This document shows, piece after piece, positions 10,771-47,950 of a DNA stretch of 48,063 nucleotides. The first letter of the stretch is position 1. Each line of letters begins with the position of its first letter. Origin of the DNA: a virus. Where the stretch lies: the IMG/VR virus record IMGVR_UViG_3300008267_008295, positions 1-48,063 of that record. One strand, 5' to 3'. The position numbers and the translations under genes are program-made. The notes beneath the pieces were generated by a model that ran no database searches, was not told the DNA's origin, and was given only the letters and a program-made list of their open reading frames with translations.

Positions 10771-10781
<11 letters not shown>
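10482..10781 (+). CDS. groES: co-chaperonin GroES
   Basis: The 99-residue protein has the Cpn10 fold pattern: QPLGDKLIVKPIEADE at the start, a mobile loop with the hydrophobic GGIII segment that binds GroEL, then AEVVAAGPG, VKVGDLVIYQ and a C-terminal VKATEIICKL. It caps the GroEL ring during folding. The gap after hsp20 is 54 nt, and its end overlaps groEL by 11 nt. Phage co-chaperonins such as T4 gp31 usually work with host GroEL; here the partner is encoded next door. Confidence 0.93.
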
Positions 10782-12408
<1,627 letters not shown>

Positions 12409-18710: not shown

Positions 18711-18711
18711 A

Positions 18712-19194: not shown

Positions 19195-19442
19195 TGACAC
19201 AAGATGAATTTATTAATTGGCTCCAAAAGTATTTGGAACAATGTGAAAAAGAGCAAATTACTCTGATCAAAGAAAAGCTTGCACTAGTAAATGCTAAATC
19301 CATAGGGTACAATTACTCAGCAATGCTTGACAAACAAAAAACATCGATCGCTGGAGAGAAACTAAATTGGTCCGTCGATAACAACAACGGAACGTACTCC
19401 ACACAATATGTAGACACGTTTACCGACAGTGATCCACAATAA
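19194..19442 (+). CDS. small helical hypothetical protein, 82 aa
   Basis: The gene shares one base with the upstream stop (TAATG). The first 40 residues form a charged helix (FINWLQKYLEQCEKEQITLIKEKLALV), the rest is polar and Asn/Thr-rich. No domain recognised. Tight packing between two confident genes supports coding. Confidence 0.6.
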   Translation: MTQDEFINWLQKYLEQCEKEQITLIKEKLALVNAKSIGYNYSAMLDKQKTSIAGEKLNWSVDNNNGTYSTQYVDTFTDSDPQ

Positions 19443-19450
19443 TAGTTAAA

Positions 19451-20503
19451 ATGAAATTAGAAAAATTTAACCTGCTCAAAAAAAGGTTTGAAGAAAATGC
19501 CTTTGAGCACAACTTTATAACACTGGATAGAATCTTATATTGGTTCTCCTTCTTAGGTAATATCTTTTCCATAATATTCTCCTACTTCTTTGTAAAAACT
19601 GTAACGGATACAATACCTACCTTCTTTGAAGGTCAGGATATTGCTTTTTCCATATTCATTATTATTTTTATGACAGGGTATGAGTTCTTGAAACGGTTTA
19701 CCTTTGAGCAAGTTGTTGTTTATGTTTGTAAACTAAGGAAGCTTACCACATCACTTGTAGTGGGTGGACTGTTTGCAATTCTATTAATTGTTGGTTCATT
19801 TTATATGAGTTTAAATGGATCCCATAGAATTATTGATCAAACAGAAACAGTAAACAGTGTTACAGAAAATACAACTCAGGTTAAAGTTGATTCCATTACA
19901 GCAATTTATGAAACTCGTATTGGTGAATATCAATCACTTATATCACAAATAAATGCAAATGCTGTTAATGGTAGGTTGAAAGCTAAGGATAAGACTGACA
20001 TCAAAAATTACGAAGGTAAAATAAGCTCACTACAATCTGAACTAGATAGTAAAGTGCAGCAGATAGAAACAAAACTTCAATCAAAGGCAGATAAGAAAAT
20101 TGATACAGCAAAAACAAACACATTCGCTCTAGTGATACTTACACTCTTTATGGAGTTGATAATCCTGTTAGGTGTTGGATTTAATGGCTTTTACAGTATT
20201 ACATCCTTCGCTGATATGAAGCATCTAATGAATACACCTAAATATAAAACTGTACAGCTTAATCTATCACTACTACAGCTATATTATCAGAAAGGTAATA
20301 AGAAGGAAGGTGATCAAACTCTATCTGTTGCTAAGCTCAAGGCGCTTGCTTCCAATCAAAAAGTGGATGCAAGAGGCAAGGATATTGATGAATTTATAGC
20401 ATTGTGTACAGAATTAGGTATTGTTAATGTTGGTAATAATAAGAAAAAGTACTATGTTGTAGCATACGAAAAAGCTAAAGACCTTTTAACAAATCAACTA
20501 TGA
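19451..20503 (+). CDS. membrane protein with four helices and coiled coil
   Basis: The 350-residue protein has hydrophobic segments at about 28-50, 62-80, 98-118 and 222-245. The stretch between the third and fourth (about 125-220) is polar and heptad-like (YQSLISQINANA, YEGKISSLQSELDSKVQQIETKLQS), a probable coiled coil on one side of the membrane. The C-terminal 100 residues are soluble and may be winged-helix-like. Family not recognised. Its location before sugar-transfer genes would fit a membrane scaffold, but that is conjecture. Confidence 0.65.
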   Translation: MKLEKFNLLKKRFEENAFEHNFITLDRILYWFSFLGNIFSIIFSYFFVKTVTDTIPTFFEGQDIAFSIFIIIFMTGYEFLKRFTFEQVVVYVCKLRKLTTSLVVGGLFAILLIVGSFYMSLNGSHRIIDQTETVNSVTENTTQVKVDSITAIYETRIGEYQSLISQINANAVNGRLKAKDKTDIKNYEGKISSLQSELDSKVQQIETKLQSKADKKIDTAKTNTFALVILTLFMELIILLGVGFNGFYSITSFADMKHLMNTPKYKTVQLNLSLLQLYYQKGNKKEGDQTLSVAKLKALASNQKVDARGKDIDEFIALCTELGIVNVGNNKKKYYVVAYEKAKDLLTNQL

Positions 20504-21135
20504 CAATAAGCTACGGATTAACAGTTTGCAACGAACACATCGAGTTAAAAAATTTAATTGAATACCTGTTACCAAAAATTGATAAGGATGATGAGATAGT
20601 TGTTGTATATGATCAGAATAGAGTAACGGATGAAGTGCATCATATACTAGCAATGTATCCTGAAGTAAGTTCATATCCTTTTGATTTCAAACAAAACTTT
20701 TTAGAGAACAAGAACTTTCTTAATTCAAAATGTACAAAAGACTATATTTTTCAAATTGATGCTGATGAGATACCAAGTGAGTTCTTGTTAGAAAATTTAA
20801 AAGTAGTTTTAGATAGTAATCCGGTTGATCTACTAATAACACCCCGCAAAAACTTAGTTGAGGGGTTGACACAGGAGCACGTAAAAAGATGGGGATGGAT
20901 GGTTACACCCCAAGGATGGGTAAACTGGCCTGACGCTCAGAAAAGAATCTATAGGAATGATTCATCTATACAGTGGAAAGGTCATCAAGTACATGGTATG
21001 GTTGAAGGCTACAAAACATATGCAATATTGCCCATGGAAGAGGATTGGTCTATTATTCACAATAAGTCAATAGATAGACAAGAACAGCAAAATGATAGAT
21101 ATACAAAAATAGAAACAAAACAAATTTATGAATAA
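20500..21135 (+). CDS. glycosyltransferase family 2-like
   Basis: The 211-residue protein begins SYGLTVCNEHIELKNLI and has FQIDADEIPSEF at ~85, where DAD/E is the metal-binding DxD motif, and WPDAQKRIYRNDSSIQWKGHQVH in the acceptor half. This matches short GT2 enzymes that act on sugar precursors. Start overlaps the membrane-protein gene by 4 nt; end overlaps the dehydrogenase gene by 8 nt. Substrate unknown. Confidence 0.8.
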   Translation: MTISYGLTVCNEHIELKNLIEYLLPKIDKDDEIVVVYDQNRVTDEVHHILAMYPEVSSYPFDFKQNFLENKNFLNSKCTKDYIFQIDADEIPSEFLLENLKVVLDSNPVDLLITPRKNLVEGLTQEHVKRWGWMVTPQGWVNWPDAQKRIYRNDSSIQWKGHQVHGMVEGYKTYAILPMEEDWSIIHNKSIDRQEQQNDRYTKIETKQIYE

Positions 21136-22204
21136 TATATCGGTATTAGGAGTTGGTAAGTTGGGATTATGCTTGGCACTCAATCTAGAACGAAAGGGGT
21201 TTAATGTTTTAGGTGTTGATATTTCTGAGAATTACATTCAATCCTTGAATAATAAAACATTTACTAGTTCCGAGCCATTTCTCAACGAATACCTTCAGAA
21301 TGCAACAAGCATTAATTTTACAACTGATTTGAAAGCATCATTACAAAATGATATACTGTTTGTTGTTGTTAGAACGCCCTCAACACACGACTGGAAATAT
21401 GATCATACACAAATTGAAAATATTGCAGACAACTTAATATCTTTGGGTAGACAGCAAGCTAGAAAAGATATAATTATCAATTGTACAACTTTTCCTGGAT
21501 ATTGTGATACTCTGCAGACAAAGCTTCAAGAGTATAACTACTACGTTTCATATAATCCTGAGTTTATAGCTCAAGGAACTATAATTAAAGATCAAATTAA
21601 TTGTGATAATGTGCTGATAGGATCCGCAGATGAATATGCTGCTCAGTTAATTAAAAACATATACTCTAATATGGTTGAGTCTAATCCCACATACAACGTG
21701 ATGAGTAGGACTGAAGCTGAATTGACTAAGCTAGCTGTTAATTGTTTTTTGACTACTAAAATCAGCTACGCCAATATGGTTGGTGATATAGCAAATAGAT
21801 TAGGATGCAACTCAGATATAGTGCTTAAAGCCGTAGGTACTGATTCGAGAATAGGTTCTAAGTATATTAAACCTGGATTCGGTTTTGGAGGTCCATGTTT
21901 CCCTAGAGACAATCGAGCTCTAGCCCGTTGTGGTGAAGAAGTTGGTATTGAAGCTATAATATCAAAAGCAACGGATGAAATGAACGAAAAGCATTTGTTA
22001 TATCAAATTGAAGATTTTTTAAAAAAACATCCGAATAAAGATGAAACCATAAAAATTGATTTTGTAACTTATAAAAAAGATAGTACTCTGATAGAAGAAT
22101 CGCAGCAGCTTAAGTTTGCTTTAAGATTGAAAGAGTTGGGCTATACTATAGAAATCTTAGACACTAGAGATGAGGTTCTTTCACAACTAAAACACATAAT
22201 CTAA
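21128..22204 (+). CDS. UDP-glucose/GDP-mannose dehydrogenase family, UDP-glucose 6-dehydrogenase-like
   Basis: The 358-residue protein has NAD-binding ISVLGVGKLGLCLALNLERKGF, YNPEFIAQGTI, the catalytic-domain Lys in ELTKLAVNCFLT and the thiol nucleophile in FGFGGPCFPRDNRAL. These enzymes oxidise a nucleotide sugar to its uronic acid with two NAD+. The most likely product is UDP-glucuronate, though other substrates cannot be excluded. It is about 70-80 residues shorter than many homologues, mainly in the C-terminal NDP-sugar domain. Heavy NAD+ use fits the NAD synthetase gene 2 nt downstream. Confidence 0.88.
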   Translation: MNNISVLGVGKLGLCLALNLERKGFNVLGVDISENYIQSLNNKTFTSSEPFLNEYLQNATSINFTTDLKASLQNDILFVVVRTPSTHDWKYDHTQIENIADNLISLGRQQARKDIIINCTTFPGYCDTLQTKLQEYNYYVSYNPEFIAQGTIIKDQINCDNVLIGSADEYAAQLIKNIYSNMVESNPTYNVMSRTEAELTKLAVNCFLTTKISYANMVGDIANRLGCNSDIVLKAVGTDSRIGSKYIKPGFGFGGPCFPRDNRALARCGEEVGIEAIISKATDEMNEKHLLYQIEDFLKKHPNKDETIKIDFVTYKKDSTLIEESQQLKFALRLKELGYTIEILDTRDEVLSQLKHII

Positions 22205-22206
22205 TA

Positions 22207-22959
22207 ATGTTATACGATCAAATATCCAGTTGGATTAACGAGTATCTACAATCTACTAATTTAAATTGTTTGGTAGTGGGCATAAGTGGAGGCGTTGACT
22301 CTGCAGTGGTATCTACACTATGCGCTCGTACGGGTAAGTGTACTATGGTGTTGAGTATGCCTATACATCAGAAGCAAGACCAGTTAACTAGAGCTCAAAA
22401 CCATATTAATTGGTTAAAAACCAAATACTCAAATGTAATATCATTTGAATATGATTTATCTCAAACCTTTGATACGTTTAAATCATTGTTTGAACTAGAA
22501 GATTCATTAGCCTTAGCTAATTCTCGTTCTCGATTGCGAATGGTTACGCTGTACCAAATATCCAGCACATATAACGGAATTGTTGTAGGTACCGGTAATA
22601 AAGTTGAAGATTTCGGTGTTGGATTTTTCACTAAATATGGTGATGGGGGAGTTGATATATCTCCCATTGCAGACTTAACAAAGACGGAGGTTAAACAAAT
22701 GGCTATGGATTTAGGAGTTTCGGAGGACATTGTAAACGCTAAACCTACTGACGGTCTTTGGGAAGATGATCGTACAGATGAAGACCAGTTGGGAGCTACT
22801 TATGAGGAGTTAGAATGGGCAATGAATTACAAAGGTTCTGTCGATGCATTATTTGGTAGACAGTTAGAAATTTATTATATTTACGATAAGTTCAATAGAC
22901 AAAATAAACATAAAATGGTAGAGATACCTATTTTTAAAAAAACAAAATATGAAATATAA
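22207..22959 (+). CDS. nadE: NH3-dependent NAD+ synthetase
   Basis: The 250-residue protein has the PP-loop SGGVDSAVVSTL, then VGTGNKVEDFGVGFFTKYGDGGVDISPIADLTKTEV and the C-terminal PTDGLWEDDRTDEDQLGATYEELEWAM, all diagnostic of NadE rather than QueC or GuaA. NadE amidates nicotinic acid adenine dinucleotide using ammonia; the glutaminase domain is absent. It sits between a dehydrogenase and a methyltransferase in the sugar island (2-nt gap upstream, 11-nt overlap downstream). It could sustain NAD+ for sugar oxidation or counter NAD-depleting host defences. Confidence 0.92.
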   Translation: MLYDQISSWINEYLQSTNLNCLVVGISGGVDSAVVSTLCARTGKCTMVLSMPIHQKQDQLTRAQNHINWLKTKYSNVISFEYDLSQTFDTFKSLFELEDSLALANSRSRLRMVTLYQISSTYNGIVVGTGNKVEDFGVGFFTKYGDGGVDISPIADLTKTEVKQMAMDLGVSEDIVNAKPTDGLWEDDRTDEDQLGATYEELEWAMNYKGSVDALFGRQLEIYYIYDKFNRQNKHKMVEIPIFKKTKYEI

Positions 22960-23566
22960 TCAAACATTTTTATATCCGGAAGATAATTACTCCGGATATG
23001 AGCAGGCTACTGTGATTTTGTTTAGAAACTTAATCAAAAGCGATTGGACTGTATTTGATTGCGGAGCCAAAACAGGATACTTTACTTTATTGTTTTCAGA
23101 AATATGTGAGACAGGCCTGGTTCATGCTTTTGAACCGACATCTACCTATGATATGTTGGTTAGTAATGTGAATGCTTATAACATAACAAATGTGGTAGCA
23201 AACAAACTAGCTTTAGGTGATAAAGTAGGTAACATAGAGGATTCTATTTTTAGAATTTGGGGACTCCCGGCGGAGAAGATGGTTTATGAATTCACAACTA
23301 TTGATGAGTATTGTAAGAAAAATAATATTAATAGGCTTGATTTAATTAAAGTAGATGTTGATTCCTACGATTTTGATTTATTAAAGGGGTCAGTGAATAC
23401 ACTAAAAACTCTAAAACCCATAATTACCGTTGAATTGAATTATGCTCTCAGTTACAGAGGATCTAGCAAAGACGAGGTTATAAGTTTTTTAGAACAAAAT
23501 GAATATGTTTTATCGCAAATAACCAATGATGAAAATCACACGTTTATACATAAAGAAAAAATATAA
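22949..23566 (+). CDS. FkbM-family SAM methyltransferase
   Basis: The 205-residue protein has a SAM-binding VFDCGAKTGYFTLLFSEI, then HAFEPTSTYDMLVSNV and the family-typical RLDLIKVDVDSYDFDLLKGSVNTL. FkbM enzymes O-methylate sugars or polyketides; in surface-glycan loci they cap or decorate sugar residues. It overlaps nadE by 11 nt and abuts another methyltransferase. Acceptor unknown. Confidence 0.85.
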   Translation: MKYNQTFLYPEDNYSGYEQATVILFRNLIKSDWTVFDCGAKTGYFTLLFSEICETGLVHAFEPTSTYDMLVSNVNAYNITNVVANKLALGDKVGNIEDSIFRIWGLPAEKMVYEFTTIDEYCKKNNINRLDLIKVDVDSYDFDLLKGSVNTLKTLKPIITVELNYALSYRGSSKDEVISFLEQNEYVLSQITNDENHTFIHKEKI

Positions 23567-24142
23567 ATGACACAAGGCGCATTAGAGGATACTTTTGTAT
23601 ACCGAGAGTTTGAAAGACTTATCAAACAGTTTAATATATCTAAAATCATTGAAACCGGAACATATCAAGGATGGTCTACTATGAAATTAGCAGAATTTAA
23701 TATTCCAGTTATCACTATTGAATCGGTGAAATCTACATATGATATCGCAATTGAAAATTTCAAAAATAACAAAAAAAATAATATTCAAGCAATATTAGGA
23801 AGTTCCCCAGAGGTGCTAATGGAAATTCTAGAACCCAGTGAAGATGGAGTGTTTCTATTTTTAGATGCTCATTGGCATGATTACTGGCCTGTACACGATG
23901 AGTTGAGTGTTTGTATTGAGAAGAAAGTAACTCCAGTTATAGCTATACATGATTTTTTTGTTCCAGATATTAATGGATATCCTAGGTTTGGTTTTGATAG
24001 ATACCAAAATCAAAATTTAGATTTAGATTATATCAAACCTTTCATAGACCAAATATATGGAGAAACAGGATATGAATATTTTTACAATTCAGAATCGGAT
24101 GCCGTTGGACAAGGTGTAATTTATATACACAAAAAGATATGA
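23567..24142 (+). CDS. class I SAM methyltransferase
   Basis: The 191-residue protein shows a SAM-fold pattern IIETGTYQGWSTMKLAEFNIPVITIES and FLFLDAHWHDYWPVHDEL, similar to cephalosporin-hydroxylase/Methyltransf_24 type small enzymes found in sugar clusters. It is the second of three methyltransferases in a row, starting the base after the previous stop and overlapping the next gene by 4 nt. Substrate cannot be inferred. Confidence 0.75.
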   Translation: MTQGALEDTFVYREFERLIKQFNISKIIETGTYQGWSTMKLAEFNIPVITIESVKSTYDIAIENFKNNKKNNIQAILGSSPEVLMEILEPSEDGVFLFLDAHWHDYWPVHDELSVCIEKKVTPVIAIHDFFVPDINGYPRFGFDRYQNQNLDLDYIKPFIDQIYGETGYEYFYNSESDAVGQGVIYIHKKI

Positions 24143-24852
24143 TTGATGAAATTAGAAATCGATTATTCTCAGATGTTCTAGAGAATAATCGAATTAAAAT
24201 ACCCGTATGGGCCAAAAAGGTTAAGATCGATGTAGGAACATCACTAAATGCCCCTAACTCAGAGTATTGGTTAAACGATGATCCTGAATTATGTGTATTT
24301 GGGTTTGAACCCAACATATACAATATTCAAAAACTCTATTCAGGTCAACATCAGTGGCCATTAAAATTCACTTCAAGTAAAATTGGTAAGTCCTTTTTTT
24401 GTATTAACTGTGCGCTGTCAAATGTAATACGTGAAGATGTTGATTTTTATTGCACCGACGATGTAAATTCAGGAACTTCTAGTTTGTTTAAACCTAAACA
24501 GCATGTAATTAAATCTATAGAAAAAGTTACTGTTATACGATTATCCGATTTTTTTGATATTTTTCCATGGGATGTGATACCTCACATAGATCAGGTTAAA
24601 ATAGATGCACAATCTGCAGATTTTGATATAGTAAAAGGAATGGGTGATTATCTTTCCGATCGTGTAGTGTATCTTGATGTAGAAGCTACTACCGGAAATC
24701 AATATTATAATCAAGAAGATGGCCATGAATTTAAAAACTATATAGAATCGAGGGGATTCGAATGTTTAGAATGGTCAATGAATGGTCGATTCCGAAATTT
24801 AAAATATCAAAATAGTTTTAATGACATAAAATACACATTTGCTAACGATTAA
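24139..24852 (+). CDS. FkbM-like SAM methyltransferase
   Basis: The 237-residue protein has VKIDVGTSLNAPNSEYWL as a modified SAM loop, CVFGFEPNIYNIQKL, and IDQVKIDAQSADFDIVKGMGDYL, the FkbM core motif. The SAM glycine motif (DVGTSLN) is less glycine-rich than in the neighbouring FkbM protein, so activity is probable but not certain. It is the third methyltransferase of a tight run. Confidence 0.75.
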   Translation: MIDEIRNRLFSDVLENNRIKIPVWAKKVKIDVGTSLNAPNSEYWLNDDPELCVFGFEPNIYNIQKLYSGQHQWPLKFTSSKIGKSFFCINCALSNVIREDVDFYCTDDVNSGTSSLFKPKQHVIKSIEKVTVIRLSDFFDIFPWDVIPHIDQVKIDAQSADFDIVKGMGDYLSDRVVYLDVEATTGNQYYNQEDGHEFKNYIESRGFECLEWSMNGRFRNLKYQNSFNDIKYTFAND

Positions 24853-24872
24853 AAGCCTCATAGTAGAAGATA

Positions 24873-25763
24873 ATGAAAAACATATATTTTACAACGAACT
24901 CAGATGGTGGTAGTACGGAAGGCATAGGCGCAATGGCCCAGTATCAGATTATATGCTATGCCCTAAGCAGGTATCTTGACACAAAATATACTTTTAGTGG
25001 ATTTCACAACCTTTCTCACTACCAATACTTTGAAATTAGTCCAAATCAATGGAGTGAAATGATTACTAGATTTTTTAATCTACGTGGAGCGCAAGTTAAT
25101 TCAATACTATCAACTGTACAATTTAATGGAACTTTACAAGACCTACAGAACCTGTGTGCGAATAGTGATAATGTGTTAATTCTACTAGATCCACAATTTC
25201 TAATGAGAACCGTTGATTTAATAATTGATAGTGAGTTGTGTAGTAAGGCATTTCAGTCTATAAAAGATAGTCTTGTATTTGATACCAAGCAGATATACTT
25301 TGATAGGAATTCCTTTAACATATCATTTCACATCAGAAGATTTACTAAAACAGACAACTGCACTGCAAGTGTTCGAGAGTATTATTCTCCCGAAAAGATT
25401 AGCAAATACAAGAATACAATAGCACTAGTATATCAACACACTAAACACCTTAATCCAGCATTTCACATCTACTCTCAGGGAATTGAGGCAGATTTTGATC
25501 AACTGAGGGATCCTAAATTAAACATAAACTTTCATATTGAGGAGGTGCCTACAACATCACTATACCACATGATACACTCCGACATGCTTATTTGTGCTAA
25601 TAGCTCTTTTAGCTACGTTGCCCATCTTTTAAATCAAGGATGTGTATCTTTAGGCAGAGACTCATTTGTACACAAGTGGAAACTTGATAGTATTAATCTC
25701 GATATTGATGGTGGATTTGAAACTAACATTTTAAAAAAACAATTATATGCAAGGTATAACTAG
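24873..25763 (+). CDS. fucosyltransferase-fold glycosyltransferase
   Basis: The 296-residue protein has SFHIRRFTKTDNC at ~150, which resembles the HxRxxD motif I of GT11/GT23/GT65 fucosyltransferases, followed by FHIYSQG and HMIHSDMLICANSSFSYVAHLLNQG, the motif III-like donor region. Its N terminus (TTNSDGGSTEGIGAMAQYQIICYA) parallels the GGxGNQ start of GT11. It overlaps the true GT11 gene by 17 nt, and the two may use the same GDP-sugar. Donor is unproven. Confidence 0.65.
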   Translation: MKNIYFTTNSDGGSTEGIGAMAQYQIICYALSRYLDTKYTFSGFHNLSHYQYFEISPNQWSEMITRFFNLRGAQVNSILSTVQFNGTLQDLQNLCANSDNVLILLDPQFLMRTVDLIIDSELCSKAFQSIKDSLVFDTKQIYFDRNSFNISFHIRRFTKTDNCTASVREYYSPEKISKYKNTIALVYQHTKHLNPAFHIYSQGIEADFDQLRDPKLNINFHIEEVPTTSLYHMIHSDMLICANSSFSYVAHLLNQGCVSLGRDSFVHKWKLDSINLDIDGGFETNILKKQLYARYN

Positions 25764-26601
25764 TCTACAAATATTAAACGATGATGAAGGAAGATGGGGT
25801 AATCAGTTATTTAGAATAGGTACTATTATAGGTTATTCTAAAAAACACAATTACAAATTTCATGTACCAGCTGACTGGAAGCATAAACAATTTTTTGAGA
25901 GCACAGAATTGATCAGTACAGACACAGATTATCTCAAGGAGCACATTAATTATCAGTTTTGCGAAGATGGTTTTCATTATCAAGAAATACCAAAGATATC
26001 CGAAGACGATGCGATGTTGGAACTTATTGGATATTATCAGTCTTACAAATACTTTGATCATGCCAAGGCAGAGGTGCTTGATTTTTTTACTTTTAAGTCT
26101 GACATAGTAAATAAAGTTAAGCAGTTATATTTTTCTGACTCCAAAGTTAGATTGAGTGTACACATTCGACACGGTGATTATTATGATAGAAGTAGGAATA
26201 AAGGGCATTCGGGTAATGAGCACTATCACCCAGTTATGACTACAAATTATTACAAAAAATGCATTCAATATATTATATCTAAGACAAGAATAGATGAATT
26301 ACTTATATTCACAGATCATCCAAGTGCACGAGCCTTCGTGCAGGATGAATTTAATGAATTTAATATTGATACGGTTTATGTTGATTATAAGAATGACTTT
26401 ATATATGATTTTATAGCACAGACGTTGTGTGATCATGCAATTATACCAAATAGTAGTTTTTCATGGTGGTCGGCTTATTTGAACAAAAACAGTAATAAGA
26501 TTATATGCTCACCTCAACCGACTTCGTGGTTTGGTTTAGGTTATAGTCACTTTATAATGGATGATCTACTTCCCGAATCGTGGATTAAAATTGATCAATA
26601 A
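25747..26601 (+). CDS. glycosyltransferase family 11 (alpha-1,2-fucosyltransferase-like)
   Basis: The 284-residue protein has the GT11 hallmarks in order: EGRWGNQLFRIGTIIGYSKKH, LSVHIRHGDYYDR, ELLIFTDHPSARAF and AIIPNSSFSWWSAYLNK. Family members move L-fucose from GDP-fucose; because a GDP-mannose 3,5-epimerase is encoded nearby, GDP-L-galactose is an alternative donor. The gene starts within the previous one and lies 4 nt before the GT25 start. Confidence 0.9.
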   Translation: MQGITSLQILNDDEGRWGNQLFRIGTIIGYSKKHNYKFHVPADWKHKQFFESTELISTDTDYLKEHINYQFCEDGFHYQEIPKISEDDAMLELIGYYQSYKYFDHAKAEVLDFFTFKSDIVNKVKQLYFSDSKVRLSVHIRHGDYYDRSRNKGHSGNEHYHPVMTTNYYKKCIQYIISKTRIDELLIFTDHPSARAFVQDEFNEFNIDTVYVDYKNDFIYDFIAQTLCDHAIIPNSSFSWWSAYLNKNSNKIICSPQPTSWFGLGYSHFIMDDLLPESWIKIDQ

Positions 26602-26605
26602 CACT

Positions 26606-27190
26606 ATGGTAGGATATATTATTAATCTTGAGCATAGAGTAGATAGACTAGCGGAGATCACTACTGAGTTACCTAAACTCCCAAACGTAAATTTTAACAT
26701 TGTCCGAGCTGTCTATGACGATGTTGGATGGAGAGGTTGTTTTTTATCTCACAAAAAGTGTATTGCCGATGCGCTGCAGCAAGGGTACGAGAGTGTACTA
26801 ATTATAGAGGATGATACACTCTTTGCCGACAACGCGGCGACAGTTCTAGAAAAATCCTACAGCGAGGCCACCGGGAGAGGTTGGGATATGTTTTATTTAG
26901 GTGCAAACATAACAAGCCCAATCACCAGGTTAACATCAAATTTAATCAAGCTTAATTCAGCACATGCCGCTCACGCTTACATAATTAATTCATCTCTATA
27001 CGATGTTGTATTGTCATACGAGATTAATAAGCCAATAGATGTTTATTACCACGACCTAATGAAAGAGCGCACAGTTCTAATGTGTGATCCAATGATTGCA
27101 ATCCAAAGACCATCCTATTCAGATATTGAAGTTGGTTTTAGAGATTACACAGACCTACTACTAACCAGATATAGAACAAACATAAGATAA
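26606..27190 (+). CDS. glycosyltransferase family 25 (LPS-type)
   Basis: The ATG at 26606 gives 194 residues starting MVGYIINLEHRVDRLAE, the normal N terminus for GT25; the earlier in-frame start at 26561 lies inside the previous gene. The motif GCFLSHKKCIADALQQGYESVLIIEDD contains the conserved SH and the EDD metal site. GT25 enzymes add galactose or glucose to lipooligosaccharide in Gram-negative bacteria. A 14-nt gap follows before the GT10 gene. Confidence 0.88.
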   Translation: MVGYIINLEHRVDRLAEITTELPKLPNVNFNIVRAVYDDVGWRGCFLSHKKCIADALQQGYESVLIIEDDTLFADNAATVLEKSYSEATGRGWDMFYLGANITSPITRLTSNLIKLNSAHAAHAYIINSSLYDVVLSYEINKPIDVYYHDLMKERTVLMCDPMIAIQRPSYSDIEVGFRDYTDLLLTRYRTNIR

Positions 27191-27204
27191 ATAACCAATA
27201 TTAT

Positions 27205-28041
27205 ATGCTACCAGTACACTCACCATATGGCTGCCCAGGAGACTACTTTCATGCGGAGACGGATAAAAAAATAAAATTAATAATTGATCCTAAAATAAGT
27301 TATTTTTACAATGATATGCGAGAGGATAGAAAAAACTACGACATACTAGTATTAATTCACGGTATGGAGCCTAGAGAAATTAATGACATATCGATACAAG
27401 TTATACAGCATCATAATCAGTTTGATAAAGTGCTCAGCTCATATCCCGAAGTTGTGAGTTCTTGTAATAATGCAGAGTTGTTTTTATATGCATCTTCCTG
27501 GATATTAACCAAAGCTGATAAATCGAGGGCCGATTATCGCAAGGACTACACAAACATTTTTACAACTAATAAAAAATTTTCATTAAGCTTTGTTATGAGT
27601 CAAAAACAACAGCTGCCTGGTCACATTTTGAGATTTAAAGCGTATAATACGATTGTTGAGGAGAGAGCCTATGAGCTTATATTTCCATCATCAATTCCAA
27701 TAGATTACAAATACAAATTATTTGAAGACTCAATGTTTCACATTGCTATTGAAAATACAAAAAATATTAACTATATTAGTGAAAAGATCGTTGACTGCTT
27801 TATGTCATTTACATTACCAATATATTGGGGCTGTCCTACTATTGGTAATTTTTTTAATACCGATGGTATAATACAATTTAATGATGAAAGAGAATTAGCA
27901 TCAATACTAGACTCTCTTACACCAAATGACTATTATAAAAGACTAGAGGCTATAGTTGATAATTACAAAATTGCAAGCGAAAAGTATGCCTTTCACGCTG
28001 ATAGAGTTAATGAATGTATTAATAAACTTTTAATAAAATAA
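27205..28041 (+). CDS. glycosyltransferase family 10 (alpha-1,3-fucosyltransferase-like)
   Basis: The 278-residue protein ends with the GT10 donor domain: YKYKLFEDSMFHIAIENTKNINYISEKIVDCFMSFTLPIYWGCPTIGNFF, matching the conserved IAxENS...YxTEK...A...PIYWG pattern. The N-terminal half is acceptor-binding and divergent. With the GT11 gene it implies a fucosylated or L-galactosylated glycan. No membrane anchor or C-terminal heptad repeats as in Helicobacter enzymes are seen. Confidence 0.82.
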   Translation: MLPVHSPYGCPGDYFHAETDKKIKLIIDPKISYFYNDMREDRKNYDILVLIHGMEPREINDISIQVIQHHNQFDKVLSSYPEVVSSCNNAELFLYASSWILTKADKSRADYRKDYTNIFTTNKKFSLSFVMSQKQQLPGHILRFKAYNTIVEERAYELIFPSSIPIDYKYKLFEDSMFHIAIENTKNINYISEKIVDCFMSFTLPIYWGCPTIGNFFNTDGIIQFNDERELASILDSLTPNDYYKRLEAIVDNYKIASEKYAFHADRVNECINKLLIK

Positions 28042-28043
28042 TC

Positions 28044-28652
28044 ATGTCAAACACAATACCACAACTAGAAGAGAAGATACACCAACTATTATCCTATAAA
28101 ACAGAGGGTTACTTTGTTGATATCGGTGCCTATGATGGAGTAGCAATAAGTAACACAAAATTTTTGGAAGATCTTGGTTGGGAAGGAGTGTGCATTGAGC
28201 CTCATCCTATTGTATTTAAAGAGTTACTAAATAATAGACAGTGTGAAAAGGTCAATTGCGCAATCTGGAAGGAAGATACGAGGGTTAATTTTCTATCCCT
28301 AACAGGTTACACTGAAATGTTGAGTGGCATATACGAATCCTATGATCCAAGACACTATAACCGCATATTAACTGAACTCCAACATTATGGTGGAACCTCT
28401 GAGATGATAGAAATAGACGCAAAGAAATTTGAATCAGTTGTTAGTAGAAAACACATAGACTTCCTTAGTATAGATACTGAAGGATCGGAGCTGCAGATTT
28501 TAGAGCAAATAGATTTCAGTGCATATGATATTGGTCTTATTTGCATTGAAAATAATTTTTTTGAATCTAGGTTTAATGATTTCTTTAAAGTTAGAGGGTA
28601 TGAGTTAAGTGCAAACGTAAACATTGATTATCTTTATACAAAAGTTATATGA
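28044..28652 (+). CDS. FkbM-family SAM methyltransferase
   Basis: The 202-residue protein has YFVDIGAYDGVAISNTKFLEDLGWEGVCIEPHP, a clear SAM site, and HIDFLSIDTEGSELQILEQIDF, the FkbM core. It is the fourth methyltransferase of the island and overlaps the epimerase gene by 4 nt. Likely sugar O-methylation; acceptor unknown. Confidence 0.87.
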   Translation: MSNTIPQLEEKIHQLLSYKTEGYFVDIGAYDGVAISNTKFLEDLGWEGVCIEPHPIVFKELLNNRQCEKVNCAIWKEDTRVNFLSLTGYTEMLSGIYESYDPRHYNRILTELQHYGGTSEMIEIDAKKFESVVSRKHIDFLSIDTEGSELQILEQIDFSAYDIGLICIENNFFESRFNDFFKVRGYELSANVNIDYLYTKVI

Positions 28653-29734
28653 CAAAATACGCACTCATTACAGGATGCTCTGGCCTAATAGGTTCCGAAT
28701 CTGTTAAGTTCTTTATAAGAAAAGGTTATACCGTGATAGGAATCGACAATCACATGAGAGGTTACTTCTTTGGCTCAGATGCATCTACAGAGGAAACTAC
28801 AAAAAGGTTAATACAAGATTTTGATGAAAACTTTATTTACAATGATGTTGATATAAGAGACTTTGATTCCATAGAAAACATATTTAAAGAATACGCTAAC
28901 AAGATAAACGTTATTATTCACGCAGCTGCGCAGCCGTCACATGATTGGGCAGCAAAAGAGCCTTTAACAGACTTTTTTGTAAATGCAGTAGGTACATTAA
29001 ATTTGTTGGAGCTAACAAGATTATATAGTAAAACAGCTTCTTTTATATTTACATCAACAAACAAGGTTTATGGAGACAACCCAAATAAATTAACCATTTT
29101 AGAGTCGGAGAAACGCTATCATTTAAATGATAAAGCTTTTGGTAATTCCATAGATGAAACGTTATCAGTAGATAACTGTTTACACTCGTTGTTTGGAGCG
29201 TCTAAACTGTCTGCAGATGTTTTGGTGCAGGAATATGGAAAATACTTTGGCATGAATACTGTATGCTTTAGAGGAGGATGTTTAACTGGTCCAAATCACG
29301 CTGGTGCTGAACTTCATGGTTTTCTCTCTTATTTAGTTAAATGTATAGTACATAACAAAGAGTATAGAGTATTTGGTTACAAAGGTAAACAGGTAAGAGA
29401 CAACATACATTCACACGACCTGGTTAATATGTTTTGGTACTATCACTTAAATCCAAAGCAAGGTGTTGTTTATAATGCGGGTGGTGGTATAGATAATTCA
29501 ATATCTATACTTGAGTCAATTGATTTAATCAACGAGGTGTGCGCAAAAAACTTAATTAGCTGGGAAAATTGGAATAAATTTACTATATTGGATGAGAATA
29601 GAATTGGTGATCATATATGCTATATTACCAATTTTAACAAATTTAAAAGTGATTATCCAAATTGGCCTGGTATAACAATATCCCTTAGTAGTATAATTGA
29701 AGAAATGACATTAAAAGAAATTAACAGTTTATGA
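28649..29734 (+). CDS. NAD-dependent sugar epimerase, CDP-paratose 2-epimerase-like
   Basis: The 361-residue SDR protein has YALITGCSGLIGSESVKFF (NAD loop), IIHAAAQPSHDWAAKEP, IFTSTNKVYGDNPNKL and FRGGCLTGPNHAGAELHGFLSYL, phrases typical of CDP-paratose/tyvelose 2-epimerase relatives. The position of the usual YxxxK pair reads FGASK, so the catalytic Tyr appears to be Phe; this may be a subfamily trait. It overlaps both neighbours by 4 nt. The exact nucleotide sugar is uncertain. Confidence 0.8.
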   Translation: MTKYALITGCSGLIGSESVKFFIRKGYTVIGIDNHMRGYFFGSDASTEETTKRLIQDFDENFIYNDVDIRDFDSIENIFKEYANKINVIIHAAAQPSHDWAAKEPLTDFFVNAVGTLNLLELTRLYSKTASFIFTSTNKVYGDNPNKLTILESEKRYHLNDKAFGNSIDETLSVDNCLHSLFGASKLSADVLVQEYGKYFGMNTVCFRGGCLTGPNHAGAELHGFLSYLVKCIVHNKEYRVFGYKGKQVRDNIHSHDLVNMFWYYHLNPKQGVVYNAGGGIDNSISILESIDLINEVCAKNLISWENWNKFTILDENRIGDHICYITNFNKFKSDYPNWPGITISLSSIIEEMTLKEINSL

Positions 29735-30813
29735 AAAAAGTATTAATACTTGGTGGTGGTGGTTTTATTGGAGGTCACCTCGCTAAAAAATTAAAATTAG
29801 ATGGTTGTTGGGTACGCATTGTTGACATTAAACCCAACCATGAATATTGGTCAACTGAGGATATTTGTGATGATTATATGTGTGGTGATTTGAGAGATCC
29901 CATGTTTGTATCATTAGCAATGTTTGCACCCAATCAACAATCAATACATAAACCAGTCGACTTTGAAAATTATAATAAAGATTATAGTATAGATAATTCA
30001 TTTGATGAGGTATATCAACTTGCTGCAGACATGGGAGGTGCTGGATACATCTTTACTGGAAATAATGATGCAAATGTTATGCATAATTCAGCACTTATTA
30101 ACTTGAATGTTGTGCATTATGCGTGCTTGATGAAAGTAAAAAGAGTATTTTATTCATCATCTGCATGTATGTATCCCGAACATAACCAATTAGATCCTAA
30201 TAATCCAAATTGTGAGGAGTCGAGTGCATATCCTGCAAATCCTGATTCAGAGTATGGATGGGAAAAGCTATTTAGTGAAAGATTGTTTTTAGCATTTAAT
30301 CGTAATTATGGTTTAGATGTGCGCATTGCTCGTTTCCATAATATATTTGGACCACAAGGTACTTGGAATGGCGGTAAAGAAAAGGCACCTGCAGCAATGT
30401 GCAGAAAAGTTGCTGAGGCTTCAGATAACAATGAGATAGAGGTTTGGGGTGATGGTAAGCAAACGAGATCATTTCTTTATATAGATGATTGTGTAGATGC
30501 AATATTAGCATTTATGAGACAAACAGAATTCCTAGGACCTGTTAACATTGGATCTGAGGAAATGGTTAGCATTAATCAACTAGCGCAAATGGCTATTGAA
30601 GCTTCAGGAAAAGGCATAACAATAAAAAATATAGATGGTGATGAGTTTGTTGCAAAGTATGGATTTAAGTGTCCAGTTGGTGTAAGAGGCCGCAATTCTG
30701 ACAACAAACTTTATATATCCCAAATGGGTAGAGAATTTGGTAGACCACTCAAAGATGGTATCAAACTTACGTATGAATGGATAAACAGTCAAACTAATAG
30801 TATATGTCAATAA
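29731..30813 (+). CDS. GDP-mannose 3,5-epimerase-like enzyme
   Basis: The 360-residue protein matches the plant/bacterial GME pattern: VLILGGGGFIGGHLAKKL, YQLAADMGGAGYI, SSSACMYPE with the catalytic Cys, EYGWEKL (YxxxK), RFHNIFGPQGTWNGGKEKAPAAMCRK with the catalytic Lys, and GVRGRNSDN. GME converts GDP-D-mannose to GDP-L-galactose (and GDP-L-gulose). All catalytic residues known from the Arabidopsis enzyme appear present. GDP-L-galactose is a credible donor for the fucosyltransferase-like genes upstream. Confidence 0.85.
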   Translation: MKKVLILGGGGFIGGHLAKKLKLDGCWVRIVDIKPNHEYWSTEDICDDYMCGDLRDPMFVSLAMFAPNQQSIHKPVDFENYNKDYSIDNSFDEVYQLAADMGGAGYIFTGNNDANVMHNSALINLNVVHYACLMKVKRVFYSSSACMYPEHNQLDPNNPNCEESSAYPANPDSEYGWEKLFSERLFLAFNRNYGLDVRIARFHNIFGPQGTWNGGKEKAPAAMCRKVAEASDNNEIEVWGDGKQTRSFLYIDDCVDAILAFMRQTEFLGPVNIGSEEMVSINQLAQMAIEASGKGITIKNIDGDEFVAKYGFKCPVGVRGRNSDNKLYISQMGREFGRPLKDGIKLTYEWINSQTNSICQ

Positions 30814-31457
30814 CCAAGAGACTTACAGTTATTATACCATGTTTCGGTAGACCACAGAGAACAAGGCGATTATTAAATTGCCTCTCAGAGCAGACTATGA
30901 TGGATTTTGAAGCGTTTATTATCGGTGATGCATGTCCAGATTTTCAAAGCCTAATTAGTAGTGATGAGTTTGCTTTGTGGAAATCTTCAATGAAACAATT
31001 AGGTGCTAGCATTGAAAGTTTTAACTTACATGAGAATTATGGTGGACATGGCTACTACATAAGAAATTATGGAATACAAAATGCTACTACTTCATACATA
31101 GTTTTTGTTGACAATGATGATGTTATAGCAAAGGATCACTTTGAGCATTATCTATCTGAAATCGAAGGTACCGACTATGCAATGGTTTATTATAATACTT
31201 TAGTTAGACCTAGCAACGATCAGATAAGATATCCTGAGCTTAGACTTGCAGGTATAGGACATTCAGAAATCATTATATCCACAGACATTGCAAGAAAAGT
31301 ACCACAACAAACATCCGAATATGGACATGATTGGAAATTTATAGAAGGCATTGTTAACATGAACCTACCAATCAAAAAGGCTAGTAGCAATAAAACGACC
31401 TATTACATTATGAGTGTTGGACCAGAAAAGCATAGGATTGATAGCTACATTGATTAA
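30804..31457 (+). CDS. glycosyltransferase family 2
   Basis: The 217-residue protein starts RLTVIIPCFGRPQRTRRLLNCLSEQTMMDFEAFIIGDACPD and has SYIVFVDNDDVIAKDHF, the metal-binding DNDD motif, making a clear GT-A type GT2 enzyme. It overlaps the GME gene by 10 nt. Donor and acceptor unknown. Confidence 0.87.
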   Translation: MSITKRLTVIIPCFGRPQRTRRLLNCLSEQTMMDFEAFIIGDACPDFQSLISSDEFALWKSSMKQLGASIESFNLHENYGGHGYYIRNYGIQNATTSYIVFVDNDDVIAKDHFEHYLSEIEGTDYAMVYYNTLVRPSNDQIRYPELRLAGIGHSEIIISTDIARKVPQQTSEYGHDWKFIEGIVNMNLPIKKASSNKTTYYIMSVGPEKHRIDSYID

Positions 31458-31458
31458 T

Positions 31459-32154
31459 ATGAAGATAATTTATAGAATATCCGATGCAGGTTATAACAAA
31501 ATAAAACCTGATTATATTAACAACGAAACTTGTTTAAGAAATGCTTTGCAAGTATTTCCTTGGTCAAAGTACGATTGGTCTATTATAGCCGATAATATAT
31601 CAGAGGAAACTAATAACATGATCCAAAAGTATATTACAAGAGATCATATTCTATATGTTTCAGTCGGTCATGGTGCAGGAACTTTCAATATTGCCCTTGA
31701 CGAAGCTTTACAGGGAGTTGATGATGATGTTGTTTATTTCTTGGAAAATGACTACCTTCATAAAAAGCAATCGGATACCATACTGCTTGAAGGATTTAAT
31801 TTAGGTGCATCGTTTGTGTCATTGTACGACCATCCCGACAAATATATCGAGCCTTATAAAGGTGGTAACCCTTATTGTGAAGGAGGAGCAGAGGACACTA
31901 GAGTGTATCTAACAAAGTCTAGTCACTGGAAGATTACAAATTCAACAACGATGACCTTTGCTTCCAAAGTATCAACACTAAAGCGAACAGAACCAACTCT
32001 AAGAAAATGGACATCGGGACAACATCCAGATGACTTCAAGATGTTCTTAGAACTGAGAGAGCAAAATGAATTGTTAATAACATCTATACCAGGCTATTCA
32101 ACACATGGTGAAACGGCTTGGCTATCACCTTTAACTGATTGGAGTAATTTATGA
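31459..32154 (+). CDS. GT-A-like glycosyltransferase of unknown family
   Basis: The ATG at 31459 (1 nt after the GT2 stop) gives 231 residues starting MKIIYRISDAGYNK; an in-frame upstream start at 31414 is inside the GT2 gene. The segment DDDVVYFLENDYLH at ~91-104 is a DxD-like metal site, and the sequence is followed by SFVSLYDHPDKYIEPYKG. Similar proteins are annotated as sugar-transfer or hypothetical in glycan loci. The final part (HPDDFKMFLELRE) has no known motif. Confidence 0.65.
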   Translation: MKIIYRISDAGYNKIKPDYINNETCLRNALQVFPWSKYDWSIIADNISEETNNMIQKYITRDHILYVSVGHGAGTFNIALDEALQGVDDDVVYFLENDYLHKKQSDTILLEGFNLGASFVSLYDHPDKYIEPYKGGNPYCEGGAEDTRVYLTKSSHWKITNSTTMTFASKVSTLKRTEPTLRKWTSGQHPDDFKMFLELREQNELLITSIPGYSTHGETAWLSPLTDWSNL

Positions 32155-32903
32155 TCTCAGTAATAATACCAACATACAAAAGTCCAGATGCTCTCGATCT
32201 ATGTCTACGTTCTTGTGTAGAAGGTCAACAAAATAAAAACCAGATCATAGTTGTTGTTGATGGTTTTTATGATCTAAATAAAGAGGTACTTGAAAAGTGG
32301 TCTGATCATATAGATATACTTAACTTACAAGAGAATGTAGGACTATGTAGAGGTACTAATTTAGGAGTATACAATGCTCAGTATGATAAGGTACTTATTG
32401 TGAATGATGATAATGTATTTCCATTTGGATGGGATGTTGAGTTATTAAAAGTTTATAAACCAAATGCAGTCATATCACCAAATCAAATTGAACCATCACC
32501 TAGTATGTTTAAGCAGTTCCACATTAGAGATTGTGGACGGGATCCCAAAACACTTAACTTGGATGGCTATTGGAAATATGAAGAGTCACTACGTGGATTA
32601 CCAACTGATGATGCTGGATCAACATTACCAATCTTTATGTCTAAAATAGATTATTTGAGAGTAGGTGGATGGGATGAAAACTATGAGCATGGTATGGTAG
32701 CTGATTGGGACTTCTTCTTAAAATGCCAACTATCAGGATTACAAATGTTAAGATCGTATAACTGTCACTTCTACCATTTTGCATCAATATCTGTTAATGG
32801 TGAGAAGAGGCAGCAAGCTGAGCTGAATGGCCATGAATATGCAAAGTATAAATGGGGCTCCTATATTAGACATAATCCAATCAACAACTTAAAATACATA
32901 TAA
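32151..32903 (+). CDS. glycosyltransferase family 2
   Basis: The 250-residue protein opens MISVIIPTYKSPDALDLCLRSC and has YDKVLIVNDDNVFP, with NDDN as the metal site, and VGGWDENYEHGMVADWDFFLKC, the acceptor-side ED-type motif of GT2. It overlaps the previous gene by 4 nt and shares a base with the next. It is the last obvious enzyme of the island. Confidence 0.88.
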   Translation: MISVIIPTYKSPDALDLCLRSCVEGQQNKNQIIVVVDGFYDLNKEVLEKWSDHIDILNLQENVGLCRGTNLGVYNAQYDKVLIVNDDNVFPFGWDVELLKVYKPNAVISPNQIEPSPSMFKQFHIRDCGRDPKTLNLDGYWKYEESLRGLPTDDAGSTLPIFMSKIDYLRVGGWDENYEHGMVADWDFFLKCQLSGLQMLRSYNCHFYHFASISVNGEKRQQAELNGHEYAKYKWGSYIRHNPINNLKYI

Positions 32904-36338: not shown

Positions 36339-36524
36339 ATGAAAAATTACATTGCAATTGCCGCTTTGGTTTTGCTTGCTTCTTGCAGCACTGCCACAAC
36401 TGAATCAACTACCACTGCTACTGACACTACTGCAGCCGTTAGTACAACCACAGTTGACACAACAGCTTTGGTTGCTGATAGCACTGCTACTGTCACTGCT
36501 ACAGATACAACCACTACGAAGTAA
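36339..36524 (+). CDS. Thr-rich small lipoprotein
   Basis: The 61-residue protein has a lipobox (VLLASC, Cys16) after a short hydrophobic start, then 45 residues composed almost only of Thr, Ala, Ser, Val and Asp (for example TTESTTTATDTTAAVSTTTV). Such a chain would be an extended, possibly O-glycosylated, stalk on the host envelope. It follows the DksA-like gene and ends 7 nt before a tRNA. Confidence 0.7.
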   Translation: MKNYIAIAALVLLASCSTATTESTTTATDTTAAVSTTTVDTTALVADSTATVTATDTTTTK

Positions 36525-36531
36525 TTCGTAT

Positions 36532-36645
36532 GTCTTTGTAATTTAATTGAGCTACTAGCAATCCGCGGGAAGCTCGAGGCAAAATCCACAATTGAGGCTG
36601 GTACCGGCCATTTGTGAAATGTAGGTTCGAATCCTACCAAGGACG
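36532..36645 (+). tRNA. tRNA with intact stems but inserts in D loop and anticodon loop
   Basis: Acceptor GTCTTTG/CAAGGAC pairs over 7 bp (one G-T), D stem is ATTT (36541-36544)/AAAT (36582-36585), anticodon stem CACAA (36587-36591)/TTGTG (36612-36616), variable AAAT, T arm GTAGG-TTCGAAT-CCTAC, discriminator G. The D loop is 37 nt; removing 36550-36578 leaves AATTGGCA, a normal loop. The anticodon loop is 20 nt (36592-36611, starts TT, ends GCCAT) instead of 7. Both inserts fold on themselves. Removing the extra 13 nt before GCC would give anticodon GCC (Gly), but other choices exist. CCA is not encoded. Confidence 0.65.
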
Positions 36646-37244: not shown

Positions 37245-37790
37245 ATGAAAGAAAAATCCTATCAAAATCGCTACGGTGATAACATCACCTTTACTGAACG
37301 GCCTGACGGCAAAATCGAAATGACTGGTTATAATCCTGAGTGGATTAGATACGGTTATTCTAATGATTACTCAGCAGCTTATCAAGTTTATCTAAATCAG
37401 TGTAATGCTTTGACTGAGCCGGATTACTTTTATCTCGTTGAAGATAATAGTGAGAATAAACTACGTCCAATGACCTATCAGGAGTTTGCCAATGAAGTAG
37501 AGACCAATGAAAATTACAGACCATATCTCAAACTGACAAAGTCTGATACTGAAGTCTTTTCTATGGTAGATCCGTCAGGTGGGCCTTATATTGCACTTGA
37601 TACAGATATTGGTAGATACTTTGAGGATGGTATCTCGAGATTTGTTACCGAAATTGATATTGCAAAAACAAAAATTATATTCACAACAACAAACCAAAAA
37701 AAGAAAAATGAAAAAGTTACTCGCAGCCGTGCTTATCGCACTAAGTCTAAACGCAACAGCTCAAACAACAATCAATCTAAATCAGCTTGA
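37245..37790 (+). CDS. hypothetical protein, 181 aa, with overlapped basic tail
   Basis: The first 145 residues form a polar alpha/beta region (FTERPDGKIEMTGYNPEWIRYGYSND..., then GPYIALDTDIGRYFEDG). The last 35 residues (TNQKKKNEKVTRSRAYRTKSKRNSSNN...) are low-complexity and basic and are encoded by the same DNA as the signal peptide of the next gene in another frame. A run of A residues at 37693-37708 could allow slippage. Family unknown. Confidence 0.55.
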   Translation: MKEKSYQNRYGDNITFTERPDGKIEMTGYNPEWIRYGYSNDYSAAYQVYLNQCNALTEPDYFYLVEDNSENKLRPMTYQEFANEVETNENYRPYLKLTKSDTEVFSMVDPSGGPYIALDTDIGRYFEDGISRFVTEIDIAKTKIIFTTTNQKKKNEKVTRSRAYRTKSKRNSSNNNQSKSA

Positions 37791-42386: not shown

Positions 42387-42460
42387 GCACCCGTAGCTCA
42401 GCTGGATAGAGCAATAACCTTCTAAGTTATGGGCCGTTGGTTCGAATCCAACCGGGTGTA
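42387..42460 (+). tRNA. tRNA-Arg (anticodon TCT)
   Basis: Canonical 74-nt cloverleaf: acceptor GCACCCG/CGGGTGT (first pair G-T), D arm GCTC-AGCTGGATA-GAGC, anticodon stem ATAAC/GTTAT with loop CTTCTAA (anticodon TCT), T arm GTTGG-TTCGAAT-CCAAC, discriminator A, CCA not encoded. It reads AGA/AGG, by eye the commonest Arg codons in this AT-rich window. Confidence 0.95.
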
Positions 42461-45409: not shown

Positions 45410-45899
45410 TCAAAAACTAAATCGCTTCTTAGCAACATGCATTGCTGAGAATGTGGACACTCTTGGCAACTTCTTACAAAAGCTAATGATTGAAGCCTAT
45501 CAACAAGGCTACAATGATGCGCTTGATGTTGCTGATGAATTAGCAAACACACCTAAGCAAGCCTACGTACTCGGCTACCGCAATAAAGTAACTGGTATGG
45601 ATTATATGAGAGGTCATGATGGCAAGTATTACCCAACTGAAAGTGGAGACTTTGCTGGTATCGATAGATCATTCCTACTTAGCACTGAATGGAGTATCTC
45701 AATGATTGTTACCAATAAGAATCTTGTCTACGAGGTTGATCGCTATTGTGAGCTTGAAGGAGTCAGGTATACAATCTACAGCTTTACTGAAAAGGCTGAT
45801 GGAGAGATACTTGCTGGTATTGGACCAACCATAACAGAATACTTTGACAAGAGTGTGGATAAGAAGATGAAAGTAGTTAACGTAAATGACCTCGACTAA
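45396..45899 (+). CDS. hypothetical protein, 167 aa
   Basis: Overlaps the GH73 gene by 14 nt. The N-terminal 45 residues are helical (IAENVDTLGNFLQKLMIEAYQQGYNDALDVADELA), the rest is alpha/beta (YVLGYRNKVTGMDYMRG, then LEGVRYTIYSFTEKADGEIL). No family recognised. Shares one base with the next start. Confidence 0.6.
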   Translation: MHPTDQKLNRFLATCIAENVDTLGNFLQKLMIEAYQQGYNDALDVADELANTPKQAYVLGYRNKVTGMDYMRGHDGKYYPTESGDFAGIDRSFLLSTEWSISMIVTNKNLVYEVDRYCELEGVRYTIYSFTEKADGEILAGIGPTITEYFDKSVDKKMKVVNVNDLD

Positions 45900-47868: not shown

Positions 47869-47950
47869 GGTCAGGTGGCGTAATTGGCTAAAGCAACGAG
47901 TTACTGGATATCCATCTCGTCTGATGCAGGTTCGAATCCTGTCCTGACTA
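47869..47950 (+). tRNA. tRNA with 15-nt anticodon loop
   Basis: Acceptor GGTCAGG/CCTGACT (first pair G-T), D arm GCGT-AATTGGCTA-AAGC (one mismatch), perfect anticodon stem ACGAG (47896-47900)/CTCGT (47916-47920), variable CTGAT, T arm GCAGG-TTCGAAT-CCTGT, discriminator A. Everything has class I dimensions except the anticodon loop, TTACTGGATATCCAT, 8 nt too long and with a TGG/CCA inner stem. If the 8 nt before TCC are removed the anticodon is TCC (Gly); other choices exist. CCA is not encoded. Confidence 0.75.

Follow-up and report, generated by a model that had tools for sequence, protein, structure and literature searches.

The window, by which we mean the whole stretch of DNA analysed (48,063 nucleotides), is a linear 48-kb virus record and represents a fragment of a large phage. 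This phage encodes a DNA polymerase, a GroEL-type chaperonin (10771–12408; Pfam Cpn60_TCP1, 257.9 bits; PHROG groEL), an exonuclease, a DNA ligase, and a large sugar-nucleotide/glycosyltransferase cluster (15935–32903) that includes UDP-glucose dehydrogenase, epimerases, and glycosyltransferases. A short Thr/Ser-rich lipoprotein gene (36340–36525, plus strand), recognized from its sequence, lies directly 5' of the element of interest, a tRNA-like RNA that extends on the same strand from the acceptor stem to discriminator base G73 (36532–36645) and is identified by both Rfam RF00005 and its fold.

The acceptor stem pairs GTCTTTG (36532–36538) with CAAGGAC in seven base pairs, one of them G-U; the 3' strand together with G73 occupies 36638–36645, and CCA is not encoded. 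ATTT (36541–36544) and AAAT (36582–36585) form the D stem, CACAA (36587–36591) and TTGTG (36612–36616) form the anticodon stem, the variable loop is AAAT, and the T arm (36621–36637) reads GTAGG-TTCGAAT-CCTAC. Two hairpins expand the loops of this frame. A 29-nt insert (36550–36578, its exact placement being ambiguous by 1–2 bases) folds as GAGCT...AGCTC between positions 18 and 19 of the D loop, which reads AATTGGCA once the insert is removed. The second hairpin, GGCTG-GTAC-CGGCC (36596–36609), is situated where the anticodon would be, within a 20-nt loop (36592–36611).

RF00005 aligns to the element over its full length (1–71) with a score of 39.7 bits (E = 1.2e-8 for the record), skipping stretches of 34 nt in the D loop and 16 nt in the anticodon loop. 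The predicted single-strand fold has an energy of −36.1 kcal/mol, compared with −25.5 ± 3.5 for shuffled sequences (z = −3.1), and contains the acceptor, anticodon, and T stems along with both insert hairpins. An initial annotation of this DNA had described a 114-nt element with intact stems, a 4-nt variable loop, and self-complementary inserts in two loops (GAGCT/AGCTC and GGCTG/CGGCC), and had called for a covariance-model check. The sequence and the Rfam alignment bear out this description and both hairpins form in the computed fold, with one qualification: all stems are complementary, but the D stem, composed of four A-U pairs, fits the tRNA model and is missing from the minimum-energy fold. 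The element therefore has the acceptor, D, anticodon, and T stems of a decoding tRNA, but where a readable anticodon would be expected in a 7-nt loop with U33 it presents a 20-nt hairpin loop.

Two further elements in the window, both on the plus strand, provide a comparison. An ordinary tRNA-Arg(TCT) is found at 42387–42460 by ARAGORN and Rfam (68.7 bits), while 36532–36645 was not reported when ARAGORN was run on the window. A second tRNA-like RNA (47869–47950; Rfam 46.2 bits) has the ends GGTCAGG...CCTGACT followed by A73 and an intact cloverleaf, and its 15-nt anticodon loop, TTACTGGATATCCAT, includes a small hairpin, TGG-ATAT-CCA.

A family of tRNA-like elements in viral contigs

To place these elements, we took 80 IMG/VR relatives of the DNA ligase encoded in the window and looked in them for T arms whose following acceptor strand could pair with a 5' strand some distance away. 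The AGTCAGG...CCTGACT acceptor, as in 47869–47950, recurs among these relatives around interiors of every length. A pattern search of IMG/VR with the family's 3' half gave at least 120 stretches, and the family comprises at least 244 distinct viral elements with the ends AGTCAGGTGGCGGAATTGG...ACAGGTTCGAATCCTGTCCTGACTAC and lengths of about 60–190 nt. Up to 12 pattern matches occur in a single 27.5-kb contig, and orientation is nearly always uniform within whole records. Because genomes from 84,980 species of bacteria and archaea yielded just eight matching stretches, all in metagenome-assembled genomes and mostly from Bacteroidetes, the AGTCAGG family is essentially viral.

The upper half of the tRNA is retained in these elements. 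Among the 244, the acceptor is paired 7/7 in 93% and the T arm 5/5 in 95%, although both figures are partly biased since the search key consisted of the T arm and the 3' acceptor strand and at least six acceptor pairs were required. U8 is present in 97.5% and A73 in 93%. The D-arm and anticodon-arm figures are unaffected by the search: 82% of the 244 have a D arm that contains GG toward its 3' side, compared with 39% after interior shuffling, whereas an anticodon arm of canonical form (a 5-bp stem and a 7-nt loop with U33) was found in only 6 of 199 measurable elements (1.5 expected from shuffled sequences). In 48 of the 244, the D arm is GGCGGAATTGGTAGACGC, exactly or one base shorter, which we take to be the D arm of bacterial tRNA-Leu. 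Clean D-loop inserts with a closing hairpin are located between A15 and G18 in six relatives (L215, L210, L185, L106, L114, and L135). Rfam assigns the family elements to 'tRNA' alone; in a census of 36 records with the Rfam tRNA model, restricted to the best 150 matches, the inserted tRNAs were not among the matches listed.

These figures bear on whether such an element could be a decayed tRNA pseudogene or an integration leftover. Integrase-linked tRNA-Leu fragments are known in phages (S-TIP37 and S-TIP28), and ARAGORN's silence on 36532–36645 would fit a degenerate gene. Yet all of its stems are intact, hundreds of relatives retain both acceptor and T arms, and the elements occur in co-oriented multi-copy arrays and exchange their interiors as cassettes (see below), so that we regard decay as extremely unlikely. 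The initial annotation had likewise argued against a pseudogene and had named random stem decay in homologues as the outcome that would overturn its view; the homologues point the other way, bearing in mind the search bias in their stem figures.

The element at 36532–36645 is not itself a sequence member of this family. Its ends, GTCTTTG...CAAGGAC with G73, differ from the family's AGTCAGG...CCTGACT with A73, to which 47869–47950 conforms, and no sequence homologue was found among the accessible IMG/VR records by 20-mer, by T-arm/acceptor pattern, or by an 18-mer from the D insert; the neighbouring protein (37245–37790), used as an IMG/VR query, also gave no homologous locus. It does share the family's architecture, in which the top half is intact and the lower half altered or expanded, and its D insert occupies the same loop region as the A15–G18 inserts of the relatives, following A15 and preceding the GG-containing 3' portion. 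Unlike most AGTCAGG elements, it still has an anticodon stem. Given its own acceptor sequence, its G73, and the lack of a sequence homologue, membership is by architecture and possibly by position, and we treat 36532–36645 as a member of an architectural class rather than of the AGTCAGG sequence family. Comparison shows that, in its predicted architecture, it groups with a large set of elements nearly confined to viral contigs. The order of lipoprotein gene followed by element is common to the window and a relative, L198, where a similar small lipoprotein gene directly precedes an AGTCAGG-type element (AGTCAGT); as these lipoproteins are short and of low complexity, their homology is only possible.

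Comparison with the family also addresses the suggestion of the initial annotation that the inserts might be spliced mini-introns, 36532–36645 then being a functional tRNA that matures to 72 nt by loss of two very small introns. Excising both inserts does give a plausible cloverleaf with the loop AATTGGCA; the remaining anticodon loop, however, holds no unambiguous anticodon, and the interiors of the relatives share no size or boundary sequence and mostly leave no anticodon arm after removal. The inserts are far below the size of any group I intron, the anticodon loop having only about 13–14 extra nt and no group I core, and no intron family appeared among the Rfam matches to the element up to E = 10. 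We therefore give splicing very little credence.

Similar elements are present in cultured phages. One, about 170 nt long and unannotated, is found in Flavobacterium phage FL-1 (host Flavobacterium sp. B183; about 19626–19798 of KY421186). It combines a Leu-type D arm with a T arm, its paired ends are GGAGTG/CACTCC, and no exact copy of its 5' half was found in IMG/VR. In Tenacibaculum phage pT24 (L223), three genes annotated as tRNA-Undet or tRNA-Pro have no normal anticodon loop (8790–8868, 8953–9025, and 9157–9235): a long hairpin replaces the anticodon arm in the two 'tRNA-Undet' genes, which ARAGORN calls tRNA-Ile, and the 'tRNA-Pro' gene has a 5-nt loop. Two of these elements correspond to 192032–192110 and 192399–192477 of the pT24 record LC168164. 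The paper describing pT24 merely counts four tRNAs (PMC5502841). A possible further tRNA-like stretch is seen at about 8500–8590 of this genome. Matches in S-TIP37 and S-TIP28, considered as anticodon-less tRNAs, were rejected as the tRNA-Leu fragments mentioned above.

Several additional observations concern other tRNA-like RNAs in the records examined. A second family (L079 4605–4751, L083 8795–8953, L119 5303–5469, and L169 836–991) has the acceptors TGTAAGG, TGACAGG, and TGTAGAG and a very long variable arm in which a CGTCT loop and sequence resembling GGGTTGACCACAAAGCCGGC occur; a D-loop insert is also present in some. Gene-poor arrays in L093, L104, L213, and L215 alternate ordinary tRNAs, tRNA-like elements, and structured recurring spacer RNAs, and spacer types recur across phages, such as GGGCTAAGTTAGATACAATTCCTCGGAGCTGGGAGTAGAATGC in L092, L094, and L141. 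The regions examined in the huge phages LR756511 and LR745206 contain mostly ordinary tRNAs; within a cluster of these in LR745206 (L225), a tRNA-like element of 123 nt (45525–45647) retains its acceptor and T arm intact.

Exchange and structure of the interiors

Two syntenic loci allow interiors to be compared between otherwise similar phages. At the first, which from the flanking proteins we read as a tail-gene module, nine small phages have flanks that are 84–93% identical (150 nt per side) and carry seven interior types. Identity between types is 19–48%, about the level of unrelated sequences, while interiors of the same type (L197/L162 and L100/L156) are 95–98% identical and thus exceed the identity of their flanks. 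The upstream flank is also present in a tenth phage, L151, whose interior is of the L197 type (93–98%). No cultured relative of these phages was found. The second locus lies directly 5' of the large terminase gene in L194; here L188 and L133 are 96% identical in the flank and 46% in the interior, whereas L133 and L152 are 85% identical in the flank and 100% in the interior. No interiors of intermediate identity were observed at either locus, and this division into same-type or unrelated interiors argues against gradual neutral drift. As judged from these alignments, the interiors at the syntenic loci are swapped as allelic cassettes, and some interior types are common to different phage groups.

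Parts of the element also appear to move separately. L215 and L210 have a D-loop insert in common (90% identity over 88 nt), but their acceptor stems differ, that of L210 being GGCAAGG/CCTTGCT, and their lower interiors are unrelated. Because the same insert sits on different acceptors, exchange acts independently on the acceptor stem, the D-loop module, and the lower module. This bears on 36532–36645, whose GTCTTTG/CAAGGAC acceptor is unique to it.

Recurrent interiors retain their base pairing. Thirty-three recurrent interior clusters take in 80 of the 244 family elements, or about a third. The 'CGACA' type, found in L213, L124 (two copies), L114, and L192, has double compensatory changes in all three inner helices: 13 cells contain double changes compared with 4.8 in shuffled alignments, and the covariation of 0.316 (0.144 shuffled) was equalled in 0 of 500 shuffles and was far lower for slid structures, these results resting on few sequences per interior type. 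L094 and L125 differ by the swapping of three neighbouring pairs around an unchanged loop, AAGCTGGGTAAT, although this comparison of two sequences is not significant by itself (61/500). As a group, interiors fold slightly better than shuffled sequences (mean z −0.56), a weak signal.

The surroundings of the elements provide clues to expression and processing. Flanking ORFs are on the same strand as the element in 330 cases and on the opposite strand in 62, and the elements lie at heads or joints of gene blocks, between co-directional genes or non-coding RNAs. A Bacteroidetes-type box, TAnnTTTG, is located 2–6 nt 5' of 14 elements (about 0.4 expected), a position from which transcription may start at the first base of the element at some loci. 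A hairpin motif, TGAC-stem-GGAAAGA-stem-AA, in which stem sequence varies and pairing is kept, lies 3–5 nt 5' of elements in L196, L112, L144, L166, L093, L018, L207, L218, and others; it had no match in Rfam.

This placement is what would be expected if the elements were tRNA punctuation, merely marking RNase P and RNase Z cut sites between transcripts with an interior that is not read and is free to vary, and the conserved part does consist of processing determinants. Nevertheless, same-type interiors keep their pairs through compensatory change and at a shared locus are more alike (93–98%) than their flanks (84–93%), where neutral interiors should drift, and D-loop inserts are swapped as intact modules. 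Punctuation is thus an unlikely explanation on present evidence. Integron attC sites have conserved self-complementary ends and a variable middle, and the elements recall them in outline, raising the question of whether they are DNA recombination sites (attC-like or attP-like hairpins) rather than RNA genes. We judge this very unlikely: the D arm, U8, and T loop obey tRNA rules, a promoter-like box accompanies some elements, and single elements lie between conserved flanks on both sides in tail and terminase modules that are themselves conserved.

A proposed non-decoding RNA on a tRNA scaffold

On balance, we lean toward 36532–36645 being an RNA with a tRNA scaffold, exchangeable structured interiors, and no decoding role. 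A non-translational RNA was among the options raised in the initial annotation, and the family comparison, with its near absence of canonical anticodon arms, favours it. In the set with which it groups, comparison shows the conserved portion to be the parts that processing enzymes read, namely the acceptor stem, the D/T-loop elbow, and the T arm; structured modules replace the anticodon arm, enlarge the D loop at a single permissive site (A15–G18), or both, with modules and acceptor stems exchanged independently as cassettes. Such an RNA would be matured and stabilized like a tRNA by host enzymes (RNase P, RNase Z, and CCA addition), and the variable hairpins would be its working part, acting as exchangeable modules that recognize molecules of the host or the phage. 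To our knowledge, unrelated alleles between conserved flanks are familiar for proteins under diversifying selection, and we know of no case in a non-coding RNA. Since such alleles are the product of diversifying or frequency-dependent selection, we favour a role in conflict (counter-defence or phage-phage competition) above housekeeping, with regulation by RNA-RNA contact as the next possibility. The fuller proposal, that phages possess an RNA effector system in which a conserved, host-processed tRNA frame displays a large and quickly changing set of cassette modules against host defences or rival phages, is put forward tentatively and, in our estimation, falls somewhat short of an even chance.

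A conflict role could also take the form of a sponge or decoy for host enzymes that act on tRNA, such as anticodon or tRNA-tail nucleases, the element offering them a tRNA that can be cut or bound but is useless for translation. A T5 tRNA reportedly evades the PARIS defence, an example of a phage tRNA escaping a tRNA-targeting system. Phage tRNAs are reported to evade tRNA-targeting defences by anticodon-loop changes (PMC10264068) and to counter retron-type immunity (PMC11555353), and tRNA tails are the target of one CRISPR nuclease (PMC12851939); in our elements it is the acceptor end that is intact. A decoy for an anticodon nuclease, as the initial annotation had suggested, should nonetheless retain the anticodon loop, and the feature that such a nuclease cuts is precisely the one missing, with 97% of measurable relatives lacking it. 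A pure acceptor-end decoy, in turn, leaves the structured, exchanged interiors unexplained, and we consider either form of decoy decidedly improbable. The defence-evading phage tRNAs of those accounts (PMC10264068 and PMC11555353) are likewise tRNA-shaped, likely products of an arms race, and often located in tRNA clusters, but they decode with an altered anticodon loop, whereas the elements here have an absent or replaced anticodon arm and swapped interiors. The retained loop with altered bases that characterizes a nuclease-resistant phage tRNA is not found in 36532–36645.

The scaffold reading is further defined by comparison with known RNAs. tmRNA (RF00023) and permuted tmRNA (RF04321) also place a tRNA top half on non-tRNA structure without an anticodon arm. 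However, tmRNA needs an alanine-type acceptor (G3-U70), and the AGTCAGG family has U-A at position 3-70, where 36532–36645 has C-G; the Rfam tmRNA models did not match the tRNA-like elements, no consistent tmRNA-type tag reading frame was seen in them by eye, and the only Rfam match to 36532–36645 besides RF00005 was one chance match on the other strand. Two phages that carry tRNA-like elements also encode tmRNAs, one permuted (RF04321, 64.6 bits; L198 8755–9123, minus strand) and one of ordinary order (68.5 bits; L155 5724–6218). Bacterial tRNA-Leu resembles the AGTCAGG family in its D arm and A73, but the family has no anticodon arm, no ordered variable arm, and a different acceptor. GOLLD and ROOL, said to have been first found in lake and rumen samples near tRNAs, are likewise structured, phage-associated non-coding RNAs (PMC12286853), but they are much larger, have conserved folds, and lack a tRNA base; the elements did not match the Rfam GOLLD and ROOL models. 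Allo-tRNA, tRNA-Sec, tRNA-Pyl, and mitochondrial tRNAs also have altered stems or loops, and some are metagenomic, as here, but these decode by anticodon, and the review that covers them does not contain the word phage (PMC7609411).

We found no prior description of such RNAs in the open-access literature searched, and a set of viral tRNA look-alikes with interchangeable inserts is apparently undescribed. If our reading is true, phage tRNA clusters, which are annotated by anticodon, would hide a class of RNA without any anticodon, and automatic annotation would drop these RNAs or assign them the label 'tRNA-Undet' or an incorrect amino acid. In that case nature would use the tRNA frame as a general display scaffold, as RNA engineering does. 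The cultured phages FL-1 and pT24 make this reading testable, and the finding bears on why phages carry so many tRNA genes.
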